From assembly GCA_014190435.1 (NCBI GenBank), contig BJGJ01000011.1:1-48499 (forward strand): DNA of 48,499 nucleotides, written 5' to 3'. Source of the DNA: Methylocystaceae bacterium. Its GTDB lineage: Bacteria; Pseudomonadota; Alphaproteobacteria; Rhizobiales; Beijerinckiaceae. A program made the translations under genes and the position numbers. Positions 4,939 to 12,025 of this stretch are shown here, in pieces. The stretch's first letter is position 1; every line of letters starts with the position of its first letter. The notes below the pieces were generated by a model. It was given only the letters and a program-made list of their open reading frames with translations. It was not told where the DNA came from and did no database searches.

Positions 4939-6348
4939 CTAGTAAGAATAATACATATCAAACTCTACTGGATGCGGAGTCATTTCGAATCTCATGACGT
5001 CCTGCATCTTGAGCTCAATATAAGATTCGATGAAGTCTTTGTTGAAGACGCCTCCAGCTGTCAGATAGGCGTGATCAGCTTTTAATGAATCCAATGCCTC
5101 GCGCAGCGAACCACAAACAGTTGGTATGGCTTTCAACTCTTCTGGTGGGAGATCGTAGAGATCCTTGTCTGCTGGCGCGCCTGGGTCAATCTTATTCGCA
5201 ATGCCATCGAGGCCGGCCATGAGCATAGCGGCGAAAGCGAGATAAGGATTTGCCATTGGATCAGGGAAGCGAACCTCGATACGCTTTGCTTTCGGGCTTG
5301 ATCCAAATGGAATGCGGCAGGAGGCTGATCGATTGCGAGAAGAATAGGCTAGGAGGACTGGGGCCTCATACCCTGGAACCAAGCGCTTGTATGAGTTGGT
5401 TGAGGGGTTTGTGAAAGCATTAAGCGACTTGGCGTGCTTGATGATGCCGCCGATGTACCAGAGGCATTCTTGTGAAAGTCCAGCGTATTTGTCTCCAGCG
5501 AAGACGGGTTTGCCTTCTTTCCAGATAGATTGATGCACATGCATGCCTGAGCCGTTATCGCCGAAGACAGGTTTCGGCATGAAAGTAGCTGTCTTGCCGT
5601 AAGAATGCGCAACTTGATGTATGGCGTATTTATAGATTTGGAGATGATCCGCCACTGTTACGAGCGTTTCAAATTTTAAGCCCAGTTCGTGCTGTGCAGA
5701 GGCGACTTCATGGTGATGTTTTTCTACCTTCACGCCCATCGCCGCCATGGCGGCAAGCATTTCGCCTCGCATGTCTTGCGCGGAGTCCACAGGCGGAACT
5801 GGAAAATAGCCGCCCTTCGTACGAACGCGGTGTCCGAGATTACCGCCTTCGTAAGCTGTGTCAGCGTTTGAGGGTAATTCCACGGAATCAAGGGTGAAAC
5901 CAGTATTGTAGGGATCTGCAGAGAAACGAACGTCGTCAAAGACGAAAAACTCAGCTTCTGGTCCGAAAAAGGCCGTATCGCCGATGCCTACCGTTTGGAC
6001 ATGCGCCATAGCTTTTTTAGCAATGCTGCGAGGATCGCGGTTGTAAGGCTGGCCTGTCGTTGGCTCAACGACATCGCAAACGATTACCATCGTTGGCGCA
6101 GCAAAGAAGGGATCCATTGTAGCGGTAGTGAGGTCGGGTAGAAGCGTCATGTCCGACTCATTGATTGCCTTCCAGCCTGCGATGGAAGAGCCGTCGAACA
6201 TAATGCCTTCGTTCAAAGCATCTTCGTCAACGATTGAAACGTCGAAAGTGACATGCTGCCACTTACCGCGGGGATCGGTAAAGCGGAAATCAACATATTT
6301 GATGTCTTCTTCTTTGATTTGTTTAAGAATTGCCTTCGCAGTCGTCAT
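4939..6348 (-). CDS. glnA: Glutamine synthetase type I
   Basis: ATP-dependent synthesis of glutamine from glutamate and ammonium; forms a dodecamer in the cytoplasm. The 469-aa protein has the usual GSI order: beta-grasp N-terminus with [19 protein letters not shown] (metal-binding glutamates), [12 protein letters not shown], the flexible glutamate loop [27 protein letters not shown], and the adenylylation tyrosine in [11 protein letters not shown] (about residue 398). The intact site indicates control by GlnE adenylylation (GSI-beta subtype). It lies 96 bases downstream of glnB on the same strand, the classic alphaproteobacterial glnBA arrangement, and ends in a probable terminator. No internal anomalies are seen. 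Confidence 0.98.
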
Positions 6349-8401: not shown

Positions 8402-9235
8402 ATGAGTCAGGTGCATAAGGTTCCCAGAAATTTTTTTGCCGTAATAATCGGAAGAGTTCTCTTCTTATGCCTTGGCGTTTGGGGATTTCAGCCTCGAGTG
8501 CATGCAGAAACACTAAAGGCGCATTATGGGATGACCCTAATGGGGCTATCAATCGGCAGCGCTTATGCGAATGGATTTGTAGAGCCGCGCAGCTACCGAA
8601 TTGATATTGGGATGCGCACAACAGGTCTGGCTAATCTGGTCAATAGCGCTAAGGGCGTAGCTTCCGCATCCGGCGGCATGTCTTCGAATGGACCTTCTCC
8701 AGCTAACTACGCCAACACAACTTCTAATAGCGAAGAGACACGCACGATTCGCATGTCTTTATCAAGTAATGCTGTGCGCTCTGTTGAGATCCGTCCTGAG
8801 CCTTGGGATTTACCAGCGCGAGTGCCGTTAGGCGAGAGTGCGCGCAGGCGGATTGTTGATCCCGTTAGCGCTTTAATTATGCCTGTGCCTCCTAGCCAAG
8901 AACTCCTGGGCCCGGCAGCGTGTGAGCGCACCATCTCCGTTTTTGACGGCATTACGCGTTTTGATATTTCTCTATCTTACTCAGGCGCGCAAAATGTCGA
9001 AGCTAAGGGCTACGCTGGCCCCGTCGTTGTCTGCGCTGCACGCTATACGCCAGTTGCAGGCCATCGGCCCGATAGTGCTTCAACGCGCTATATGTCTGAG
9101 AACCAAGACATACATGTCTGGCTTGCGCCTATGCCAGAAACACATGTCCTGCTTCCAATTCATATTGACATTGGCACTGCGGCGGGCGAGCTGGCTATTG
9201 ATGCTGCCGAATTCACGCTCGGACAAAGGCGCTAG
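8402..9235 (+). CDS. DUF3108 domain-containing exported protein
   Basis: 277 aa with an N-terminal hydrophobic segment (about residues 11-30) ending in VHAE, consistent with a Sec signal peptide. The mature part begins HYGMTLMGLSIGSAYANG, the usual start of the DUF3108 beta-barrel-like fold, and carries late segments VVVCAARYTPVAGHRP and VWLAPMPETHVLLP. Family members are periplasmic or outer-membrane-associated and of unknown function; in Hyphomicrobiales they often sit near rpmB. The final stop overlaps the stop of the convergent gene: both use the tetramer CTAG at 9232-9235. Confidence 0.8.
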   Translation: MSQVHKVPRNFFAVIIGRVLFLCLGVWGFQPRVHAETLKAHYGMTLMGLSIGSAYANGFVEPRSYRIDIGMRTTGLANLVNSAKGVASASGGMSSNGPSPANYANTTSNSEETRTIRMSLSSNAVRSVEIRPEPWDLPARVPLGESARRRIVDPVSALIMPVPPSQELLGPAACERTISVFDGITRFDISLSYSGAQNVEAKGYAGPVVVCAARYTPVAGHRPDSASTRYMSENQDIHVWLAPMPETHVLLPIHIDIGTAAGELAIDAAEFTLGQRR

Positions 9236-9633
9236 TTAATCCGAACTTCTTTGGTAATGCGACGGTTGCGTCGATCTGCCTCAAATTCGAGATATCTAAT
9301 TTCGCTGGGTTCTGAGGTTGACTTGAGACAAAAGGAGGGCCTGGGCGTAAAGCCCCCAGCTGGATTTTCAAAGCAATCTGAGAATCTCGTCTCGCATTGA
9401 AACATTGTTTCCGTTTTGGGAGCTGCCCGCGCGGCAATCGCGCGGGCATTATCAATTGCTGCAGAGCACAAGGTCTCCTCTAAGCCCCAAGCCCTACATT
9501 CCGAAAGGGTGGACATGTATTTACCTCCGCCTTGACAGGCAGGTGCGCGCCCTTTTGTCGCGTAAAAAATCGAAAAGCCGCCGGCGGCTAAGATGACGAG
9601 TATTAGGATCATTTTGAAGGGCGAGGCGGTCAT
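9232..9633 (-). CDS. DUF1190/YgiB-like small membrane-anchored protein
   Basis: 133-aa protein with an N-terminal membrane segment (residues 8-24) and a cysteine-containing outer domain. The arrangement LSECRAWGLEETLCSAAIDN, then AAPKTETMFQCETRFSDC, resembles the DUF1190 family (E. coli YgiB/YjfM), in which a Cys-containing motif is followed by PxY-CExxYGxC. No lipobox cysteine is evident, so it is probably anchored by an uncleaved N-terminal helix. It converges on the DUF3108 gene with a 4-base overlap of stop codons. Function unknown; family assignment moderate. Confidence 0.6.
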   Translation of the reverse strand: MTASPFKMILILVILAAGGFSIFYATKGRAPACQGGGKYMSTLSECRAWGLEETLCSAAIDNARAIAARAAPKTETMFQCETRFSDCFENPAGGFTPRPSFCLKSTSEPSEIRYLEFEADRRNRRITKEVRIN

Positions 9634-10055
9634 CAGAGCTCATGGAATGATGTTAAACAAGGGGGTTTAGAGCTAGTCAAATAGCACAGTGGCGACAAAA
9701 GGCGATGGGGCAAGCGGTGTTTAACGATGGTGTGTTTTGTTCGCGATCTTGACAAGGATCAGCCGTTCCAATAGTGCAATGGCCACCGCTTCCCGCCATC
9801 AAGGCGTCTTGCCGCGATGTCGAAAATTGATCAGAAGCGGGGTCGCGTCGGAGCTTTATTTCCGATGTCGCCGGTCTTCAAAAGAAGAAACTGGCGTAAT
9901 GGACTTTAGGGAGACGCCTTTGTGGCGCATCCTATCGGGCCGCTCTTACTGATCTTTAGGACAATGAATGCGGCGGGACTGCTTGCAGGTGTGTTGAATA
10001 GAAGCGTTAGCCTGCGCCAGTGTCGCTCCAAGTAAATGTTAAACAGGAGGAAATC
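9634..10055. other. Long intergenic region upstream of the 37-aa peptide gene
   Basis: 422 bases without a convincing gene. A possible promoter on the plus strand has TTGACA at 9749-9754 and TAGTGC at 9772-9777 (17-base spacer; the -10 is poor). The only open frame (9737-9952) has biased, Arg/Ser-rich composition and no good ribosome site, so I do not call it. The stretch could carry a long leader or a small RNA for the following peptide gene, but no clear structure is evident. Confidence 0.4.
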
Positions 10056-10169
10056 ATGGGTGCTATTCTCGAATTGACCAGCTATGCATCAACGCCAACC
10101 GGTATGATCGCGATCATCGCGATTGGCGCGGCGGCTTATTTTGCTGCTCGTTGGGTATTCAACGACTAA
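10056..10169 (+). CDS. 37-residue single-span membrane peptide
   Basis: An ATG preceded by a perfect AGGAGG (10045-10050, spacing 5) opens a 37-codon frame ending in TAA at 10167-10169. The peptide has a short polar N-terminus with MGAILELTSYASTPTG, one hydrophobic stretch GMIAIIAIGAAAYFAARW (residues 16-33) and the tail VFND. A strong intrinsic terminator follows 28 bases later, so it is a complete monocistronic unit. The strong ribosome site and dedicated terminator argue for a real, well-expressed gene. I do not recognise the family. Similar single-TM peptides are often accessory subunits of respiratory or transport complexes, but nothing here assigns it to one. Confidence 0.7.
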   Translation: MGAILELTSYASTPTGMIAIIAIGAAAYFAARWVFND

Positions 10170-10197
10170 TTTTACGCGCATTCTTTGCACGTTTCTG

Positions 10198-10236
10198 ACC
10201 CGACGCGTCGATGCTAGTCGATCCGTCGGGTTTTTT
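10198..10236 (+). terminator. Strong Rho-independent terminator behind the 37-aa peptide gene
   Basis: Arms ACCCGACG (10198-10205) and CGTCGGGT (10224-10231) pair perfectly and are followed by a run of T residues to 10236. The stem, with additional inner pairing possible, and the T-run make a textbook terminator. Confidence 0.9.
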
Positions 10237-10354
10237 ATATCGGCTTACACATTATTTCTGCAGAACTGGTCTTGCGTCTGATGAGAGCTCGTCTATCGTG
10301 AGTTGGCACCAGCACTTATGGGCAGGGATTTTTTAATGTATAACGCGCGCTTAC

Positions 10355-10407
10355 TACAGCGGCGTTCCAATAATTCGACGTAACTAGTTTAAATACAGCG
10401 GTATTCC
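10355..10407 (+). repeat. Direct repeat of 14 bases upstream of the LuxR-type regulator
   Basis: TACAGCGGCGTTCC at 10355-10368 and TACAGCGGTATTCC at 10394-10407 agree at 12 of 14 positions and start 39 bases apart. The second copy ends 19 bases before the GTG start of the regulator gene. A spacing close to four helical turns on the same face suggests an operator, possibly for autoregulation. The second copy can also fold as a short AATAC/GTATT hairpin. Confidence 0.45.
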
Positions 10408-10426
10408 TTGTTTTTTAGGTAACACG

Positions 10427-11212
10427 GTGGCAACATCTATGGCGACGAGCTCTGCAACCAGGGTAGGAGACGGCAGGCTCGAGGGCGGGGCCGCCCGACA
10501 GCGCCCAGTAACGCCAGAAGCGATTGACGTGGCGATTGCGGATAAAAGTCCGCTTATTCTTGCAGGCCTAGACAAATTGCTCTCGGAAGATCTTCGGTTC
10601 CAGCTTGTGTTGAAGGTAACAGATGGCGAAGAGTTTCTTGAAGCTGCGCGCCAACAAAAATTTGCTTTAGCGGTTATTGGCTGGCAGCTTCCCACTGTTC
10701 ATGCTCGAGATGTTTTGCGCGCCCTCTCTCGACAGGTTTCGGCACCAAAAATTGTCGTCTACAGCGGCACTAATGACCCAGCCGCCCCAGCAGAAACTTT
10801 GCAGCTTGGCGGCGCAGGTTTTGTTTCTAAGCGCGCCCCGCCAGAGCGGTTGCTTGACGTCTTATCCGCAGTAGCGGCGGGCGATATGGTTTTTCCCTTC
10901 GTGGATATTCGTAAAATGCGGAGCGATCCGCTTGAAAATCTCACCTTGCGTGAGCGTAGTCTCCTATCAGCTCTTGGCTCGGGACATACCAATAGTCAGT
11001 TAGCGAAAGATTTTGGCGTTTCGATTAACACAATTAAGTTTCATTTAAGGAATCTTTTTGAAAAATTAGATGTGCGAAACCGCGCGCAAGCAATCGCGCT
11101 ATTTTTAGAAATGAAGCACGGCGCTTGGCCTGGTGGCGCTGCTTCAAGTAGTCGCAATATTGATGGTTCATCAACTATTCGCGGAAGACGTGGACAAGGT
11201 CGAATAGAATAA
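10427..11212 (+). CDS. LuxR/NarL-type regulator with a pseudo-receiver domain
   Basis: 261 aa. Residues about 34-150 have the receiver layout: one acidic residue at the N-terminal pocket (VAIAD, D39), a helix-strand alternation and a conserved Lys (GFVSK, K135). However, the phospho-acceptor position reads LAVIGWQLP, with Gly85 where Asp is expected. The C-terminal LuxR-type helix-turn-helix is intact: LTLRERSLLSALGSGHTN, LAKDFGVSINTIKFHLRN, FEKLDVRNRAQAI (about 172-227). It therefore probably binds DNA but is not switched by aspartyl phosphorylation. The start is GTG at 10427, with an alternative ATG at 10439. No sensor kinase is adjacent. Tail of about 30 residues is low-complexity. Confidence 0.85.
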   Translation: MATSMATSSATRVGDGRLEGGAARQRPVTPEAIDVAIADKSPLILAGLDKLLSEDLRFQLVLKVTDGEEFLEAARQQKFALAVIGWQLPTVHARDVLRALSRQVSAPKIVVYSGTNDPAAPAETLQLGGAGFVSKRAPPERLLDVLSAVAAGDMVFPFVDIRKMRSDPLENLTLRERSLLSALGSGHTNSQLAKDFGVSINTIKFHLRNLFEKLDVRNRAQAIALFLEMKHGAWPGGAASSSRNIDGSSTIRGRRGQGRIE

Positions 11213-11227
11213 CGCTTGGAGTATTGA

Positions 11228-12025
11228 CTAAGGAGACGGAAATAATGCGCTGGTTTTTCCCGTTAACCAGTAAATTAACAGTCCGATCCATTCATGCACA
11301 GCAAATTGTGTGACTCCGATTGTGCGCGTTGCAAATCTTGGCTGGGACAAAATTGATAGTTTTCCCTCAGTTCGATAATCAACAGGATATGCAATTACCG
11401 GGAAGCCTATTTTGCGAAAAACGCCTATTGCTCGCGGCATGTGCATTGCTGAGGTAACAAGAAGCCAGTGTTCATTGGGTTTTGGTTTGATTATTTCATT
11501 TGTGAAAAGGGCGTTCTCAAAAGTATTTCTTGATCGATTTTCAAAAATAATAGCTTTTGTATCAACGCCTAAATTATTCCAAAACTGCTTTACGCCATCT
11601 GCTTCGGTATAGATTGAGCTCTTTAATGCAGCGCTGCCGCCAGTAAATATAATTCGGGCTGATGGATACCGGCTTTTTAGCGTGATCAGCGTAGTCAGTC
11701 TTTCCGCTGCTGAGTCAATTAAAACGGGACGCCCAATTTTCTCACTTAGCTTTTCATCAATAGCTCCTCCAAGAACAATGATGCCATCAGGGGCCGGACT
11801 GTTTTCTGGAGGTAGAAGAAAGCGCGTCTCTAGGGGCATGGCGATGATCCCGCCGATCGGACCAAAAGCCATAAGTAAAAGCATCAGTCCTCCCATCAGA
11901 CTAAGACGCCGTCCAAGATTTGAGAAAGTGGTATAAAGAAGAAGCGCACCGATAAGTACAAGCAATATAGCAAGATTAAGCGGTGCAAACAGAAACTCAA
12001 ATATTTTTGAAGCAGTAAAGAACAT
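11228..12025 (-). CDS. YdcF family (DUF218) membrane-anchored protein
   Basis: 265 aa with two N-terminal hydrophobic segments (about residues 12-32 and 40-60), followed by the DUF218 core. The core contains DGIIVLGGAID, SARIIFTGGSA, ENRSRNTFENALFT and WLLVTSAMHMPRAIGVFRKIG. This is the ElyC/SanA/YdcF group of envelope proteins; relatives affect peptidoglycan or undecaprenyl-phosphate handling, but the exact reaction is unknown. The C-terminus HEWIGLLIYWLTGK is a further hydrophobic stretch typical of the family. It is convergent with the LuxR-type gene (15-base gap) and downstream of the ETF-QO terminator. Confidence 0.85.
   Translation of the reverse strand: MFFTASKIFEFLFAPLNLAILLVLIGALLLYTTFSNLGRRLSLMGGLMLLLMAFGPIGGIIAMPLETRFLLPPENSPAPDGIIVLGGAIDEKLSEKIGRPVLIDSAAERLTTLITLKSRYPSARIIFTGGSAALKSSIYTEADGVKQFWNNLGVDTKAIIFENRSRNTFENALFTNEIIKPKPNEHWLLVTSAMHMPRAIGVFRKIGFPVIAYPVDYRTEGKLSILSQPRFATRTIGVTQFAVHEWIGLLIYWLTGKTSALFPSP

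Follow-up and report, generated by a model that had tools for sequence, protein, structure and literature searches.

Membrane enzymes can be stabilised by single-pass small peptides of the CydX, CcoQ and KdpF type, which are usually encoded in the operon of the enzyme itself. For the copper membrane monooxygenases, Tucci and Rosenzweig are said to have studied both pMMO and AMO within native membranes, and PDB entry 9cl5, which we take to be pMMO in native membranes, includes a short chain (Da) named 'particulate methane monooxygenase supernumerary helix'. The pMMO structure 4PHZ also shows an unidentified helix, according to the legend of Fig. 1 in the accessible part of PMC8098663, and we assume that this helix and that of 9cl5 are the same; no extra pMMO helix is named in the accessible parts of PMC9445010 and PMC7584546. 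The CuA-like copper protein PmoD (PDB 6cpd), which belongs to pmo operons, combines a copper domain in the periplasm with a signal peptide and a helix at its C terminus (PMC6189053, accessible part). According to the same portion of that paper, pMMO is more active in whole cells than after isolation, and missing protein components are suspected.

The gene described here, from a Methylocystaceae bacterium, encodes a 37-residue membrane peptide and lies in a window of 48,499 nucleotides, the whole stretch of DNA that was analysed. It bears comparison with each of these systems. Like CydX, CcoQ and KdpF the product is a small single-pass peptide, whereas its gene is outside the enzyme operon. PmoD shares with the peptide a tie to pMMO, and the two genes are neighbours in one genome, but the peptide has membrane-type helices only. 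A further parallel, drawn without a claim of homology, is with AmoX, AmoY and AmoZ, the additional small subunits of the archaeal ammonia monooxygenase, which add membrane helices to a copper membrane monooxygenase, as is proposed for the peptide; in the accessible text of PMC10030591 they are backed by native-complex proteomics and linkage to amo. Table 1 gives the positions of the features discussed.

Table 1. Features of the peptide locus and of related loci. Positions without a prefix are those of the window.
Feature	Position	Strand	Basis or remark
DUF3108 neighbour	8402-9235	+	Pfam; homologues in L202 and L220
DUF1190-like neighbour, divergent	9232-9633	-	Pfam, just over cut-off; homologues in L202 and L220
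Shine-Dalgarno sequence AGGAGG	10045-10050	+	ends 5 bases before the start codon
Spacer AAATC	10051-10055	+	between AGGAGG and ATG
37-residue single-pass membrane peptide gene, stop included	10056-10169	+	ORF read; homologues; pN/pS; structure model
Intrinsic-terminator-like hairpin and T run	10197-10237	+	folding, z -4.3
LuxR/NarL-type regulator with aspartate-less receiver	10427-11212	+	Pfam Response_reg and GerE; GTG start from the ORF list, provisional
Paralogue of mercury-operon type	L039-L042 (about 5230-6100), L210:6096-6209, L218:5001-5114		Methylocystis genomes and plasmids
23-codon supernumerary-helix gene	L275:11598-11666, G010:C6	-	identity to 9cl5 chain Da

In the window sequence the start ATG occupies 10056-10058 and 37 codons precede the TAA at 10167-10169; the product, MGAILELTSYASTPTGMIAIIAIGAAAYFAARWVFND, has a single hydrophobic stretch. 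Folding of the 76 bases 3' of the stop gave -29.6 kcal/mol, against a mean of -17.3 for shuffled sequences, with the hairpin at about 10197-10232 and the T run after it. This terminator was not among the results of a simple terminator scan. The same scan returned no promoter-like site in 9000-11500, and the window gave no match to Rfam or in a tRNA scan. The earlier note on this DNA had read the segment as a complete small membrane-peptide unit, which it took to be highly expressed, and the structural part of that reading is confirmed by the AGGAGG, the 5-base spacer, the 37 codons with one membrane helix, the TAA and the strong hairpin with its T run; the 422-base gap that it placed ahead of the gene (9634-10055) was also correct.

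The 37-codon unit is a conserved protein-coding gene. It is found in 36 of 37 same-genus genomes, the sole miss being G029, which is 64% complete. We collected 86 loci with a full-length match, corresponding to 52 distinct coding sequences, with some contigs counted from two collections. Of these loci, 85 begin with ATG and 84 have the stop directly after residue 37, while AGGAGG lies at most 16 bases from the start in 81. Homologues thus keep start, helix and stop, the absence of which the earlier note had named as grounds for dropping the gene, and the Ka/Ks-type comparison that it suggested points the same way: over 44 coding sequences of at least 80% identity, pooled pN was 0.060 and pS 0.494, giving a pN/pS of 0.12 from pairwise counts that are not tree-corrected. 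The leader 5' of the Shine-Dalgarno sequence is highly divergent, and inspection by eye of the aligned upstream regions of homologues found the Shine-Dalgarno region alone to be kept throughout, with no convincing promoter. Since 32 of 57 distinct regions downstream of homologues satisfy a strict hairpin-plus-T4 rule, the terminator is common, if not universal under that rule. Searches of Pfam and NCBIfam matched the peptide to PGF-CTERM alone, below cut-off; the PDB chains of known residues gave no significant match for the peptide or its profile; and a topic search of the literature, made without the peptide sequence, yielded no paper that we recognised as concerning this peptide.

An AlphaFold2 model built on a 14-row alignment (mean pLDDT 93) has helices at residues 3-11 and 14-36, with the break at Thr13-Pro14, a pair invariant in 14 of 14 aligned rows. 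In our interpretation of this model, the N-terminal helix would lie on one face of the membrane, Thr13-Pro14 would break the chain between the two helices, and helix 14-36 would span the membrane, placing Arg32-Trp33 at the cytoplasmic face.

Loci reached by way of the neighbouring regulator show the named carriers to be Methylocystis, Methylosinus and Methylocapsa, together with MAGs under wider names. To relate the peptide to methane oxidation, a profile search for it was combined with PF02461 for PmoA and PF02964 for soluble MMO in 298 genomes of the family, from 43 genera; three samples of this size were judged by their handles and tallies to be one set, in which most of the negatives are not named individually. 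The peptide was found in 45 genomes and PmoA in 40, within the same three genera. The peptide is present in each of the 40 PmoA genomes, as against 5 of the 258 PmoA-negative genomes, and 253 have neither (Fisher 2e-44, not corrected for shared ancestry). The soluble-MMO gamma-chain family PF02964 was matched in 21 genomes, 14 of which also have PmoA and the peptide; the other seven (G071, G101, G136, G174, G181, G201 and G215), among which G181 has a much weaker match than the others, have neither. Within genus g64, the peptide is present in 10 of 10 PmoA genomes and in none of four soluble-MMO-only genomes. Thus, within the family, the peptide tracks pMMO and not soluble MMO or genus as such.

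The five peptide-carrying, PmoA-negative genomes are G000, G003, G008, G017 and G023. None gave a match to PmoB, and a PmoC-family gene, whole or as a fragment, was found in four. One of these is G000, the genome of the window itself, with a PmoC-family fragment at a contig edge (G000:C125:2-232, L179), and its pmo operon was probably present and lost in assembly. G008, rated 98% complete, has the peptide with no match to PmoA, PmoB or PmoC. In a genus set of 39 genomes, 31 have PmoA, and one of these, the incomplete G029, has PmoA without the peptide. Across a phylum sample of 398 genomes, strong peptide matches were confined to G000 and G010; matches in 12 genomes outside the family were put down to chance, the best E being 5e-4 and most lying inside long reading frames. 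PF02461 was above cut-off in that sample in G010 and G432 only. We rejected G432 as a pMMO genome lacking the peptide, and it counts neither way for the link, because ammonia monooxygenase is the closest match of its PF02461 gene. As strong matches are confined to three genera of one family, few independent events lie behind the link. The apparent tie of the peptide to pMMO is a result of the present analysis, drawn from gene content within one family.

The next gene downstream encodes a regulator with a receiver and a LuxR-type helix-turn-helix domain in which the phospho-acceptor aspartate is absent. Its description in the earlier note as a LuxR-type regulator with a pseudo-receiver was borne out, the aspartate being replaced by glycine. 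Glycine occupies this position in 59 of 70 aligned regulator rows, including every row from Methylocystis, Methylosinus and the Methylocapsa type; aspartate is present in four distant rows, and seven do not cover the position. Conservation of the order of the two genes, another check proposed at the outset, was found in 29 of the 30 best peptide loci, the one miss being at a contig edge, while copies elsewhere have other settings. On the other side, L202 and L220 also hold the peptide alongside homologues of the DUF1190-like and DUF3108 neighbours. In 58 hand-chosen genomes, the regulator (E 1e-30) was found in 25 of 26 with PmoA, the miss being G029, and in 0 of 32 without. It is therefore a candidate pMMO regulator on the strength of this pattern; a topic search of the literature brought up no paper that we recognised on a LuxR-type pMMO regulator in these methanotroph genera.

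The arrangement is different in G007 (L036, G007:C1:1-9000), where the peptide gene lies about 220 bases from a PmoD-family open frame (matching PDB 6cpd at E 5e-13), followed by a multicopper oxidase, and the LuxR-type gene is far away at 3.64 Mb.

Other copies of the peptide gene occur on Methylocystis plasmids, with transposases among their neighbours; at the five plasmid positions found, no gene is annotated in a gene table that describes itself as incomplete. The copy on the Methylocystis parvus OBBP plasmid (L033:8001-8111, minus strand; L216:8001-8111) has a TTG start in place of ATG, and a decayed copy, L209:413-610 (G227:C154), departs from the family in its C-terminal part. A diverged paralogue, with MCDG at its N terminus, occupies the interval between merR and merT-merP-merA in each of the six Methylocystis loci that were checked, and no gene is annotated there on the Methylocystis rosea plasmid. 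Weak peptide matches of 36-45% identity had been taken for chance, a view overturned for four of the five examined (L039-L042), which are such mercury-operon paralogues; L043 is not. MerT (E 1e-20) is present in 3,800 plasmid records, and a detectable peptide of the mercury-operon type in two, both from Methylocystis rosea. Mercury resistance therefore does not need the peptide.

The structural candidate that we compared with the peptide is the helix of 9cl5. We searched 2.0 Mb of G010, whose PmoA has 4phz and 9cl5 chains among its best matches, for small frames that combine a ribosome site with a membrane stretch, and checked part of them against the PDB. One 23-codon frame was identical to chain Da at 23 of 23 residues, and on this account G010 is in all likelihood strain Rockwell or a near twin of it. 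Like the peptide, the 9cl5 helix comes from a Methylocystis-type organism and is a single hydrophobic helix, and both are encoded by stand-alone micro-genes with their own ribosome site and a downstream hairpin, unlinked to pmoCAB; the helix gene has its hairpin and T run 145 bases past the stop, and about 175 kb separate it from the closest PmoA gene that was found in G010. They differ in length (23 versus 37 residues), and the helix has been modelled with pMMO whereas the peptide has not. Nor is their similarity convincing. The best local score against the helix, 37 for the peptide copy of G010 (shuffle p 0.0025), compares with 36 for an unrelated ORF from G010 (p 0.012), and we did not accept homology; the window's copy scores 30 (p 0.022) and Methylocapsa-type homologues 15-23. 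In the G010 stretches L221-L320 we also observed three closely similar 55-residue proteins, starting MADKEFE or MASKELE and apparently with two membrane helices.

It is thus very improbable that the peptide accounts for the unidentified transmembrane helix in the Methylocystis and Methylosinus pMMO structures. The organisms and the size are right, the pMMO linkage is strict and the 4PHZ legend does leave such a helix to be named, but chain Da is encoded by a different gene of G010, which refutes identity with the 9cl5 helix; the 37-residue peptide finds no match in the PDB, and its similarity score is barely above that of the unrelated ORF. The link between the peptide and the 9cl5 helix is therefore one of analogy, since the modelled helix has a gene of much the same make-up.

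The best-supported reading appears to be that of an accessory micro-protein of pMMO or its membrane, unrelated to the 9cl5 helix. More specifically, we put at about even odds (a probability of roughly 0.5) that the peptide is a single-pass inner-membrane accessory factor of pMMO, serving assembly, copper loading or membrane stabilisation. It could dock beside PmoA and PmoC or beside PmoD copper-handling proteins, and the adjacent regulator may govern expression of the peptide along with the pMMO programme. This is favoured by the distribution of the peptide between PmoA-positive and PmoA-negative genomes, by its absence from the seven soluble-MMO-type genomes without PmoA, by the adjoining PmoD-family gene in G007 and by the precedent of the 9cl5 helix as a stand-alone pMMO micro-gene. 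Against it stand the lack of a PDB chain match although 9cl5 is presumably pMMO in native membranes, the position of the gene outside the pmo operon, its persistence in five PmoA-negative genomes and its absence from G029, the mercury-operon paralogue, which it leaves unexplained, and the confounding of pMMO with intracytoplasmic membranes. A wider proposal, which we hold tentatively and regard as rather doubtful, would make the locus a dedicated alphaproteobacterial pMMO module, comprising a second micro-subunit or assembly peptide and a regulator of the pMMO or membrane programme, with the paralogue recruited to mercury operons, where it would keep pMMO membranes working under mercury.

Since pMMO and intracytoplasmic membranes occur together in these methanotrophs, the same distribution would be expected if the peptide shaped or stabilised the membranes that house pMMO without binding the enzyme. 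The modelled short helix, break and membrane helix would suit an L shape, with the N-terminal helix wedged in one leaflet. We are aware of no single short peptide of such a type that has been shown to bend membranes, and the PmoD-family neighbour and the mercury-operon paralogue suggest a role that is more specific or linked to metals; we consider membrane shaping unlikely. The conserved gene order and the pMMO pattern common to both genes would fit a membrane partner, such as an anchor or sensor, of the aspartate-less regulator, but a strong terminator separates the two genes, they are far apart in G007, extra peptide copies lie elsewhere on plasmids and in mercury operons, and distant regulator homologues in other bacteria (L078-L080, L083 and L085) have no detectable peptide alongside; a partnership of this kind seems to us quite improbable. 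We would give about as little credit to a small helper of metal transport across the membrane, for copper or mercury. The paralogue with its N-terminal Cys in six mercury operons, and the G007 copy, with PmoD and a multicopper oxidase next to it, speak for such a helper; the scarcity of the peptide among plasmid records with MerT, and a window copy that contains no Cys and no His, speak against it.

On the reading as a pMMO accessory factor, the finding bears on the activity that pMMO loses on isolation. The peptide gene, which tracks pMMO in three genera and is missing from relatives that have soluble MMO alone, would be a concrete candidate for a missing pMMO helper, and at 37 codons it is small enough to escape routine gene finding. 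The co-inherited regulator is an equally concrete candidate for the control of pMMO.
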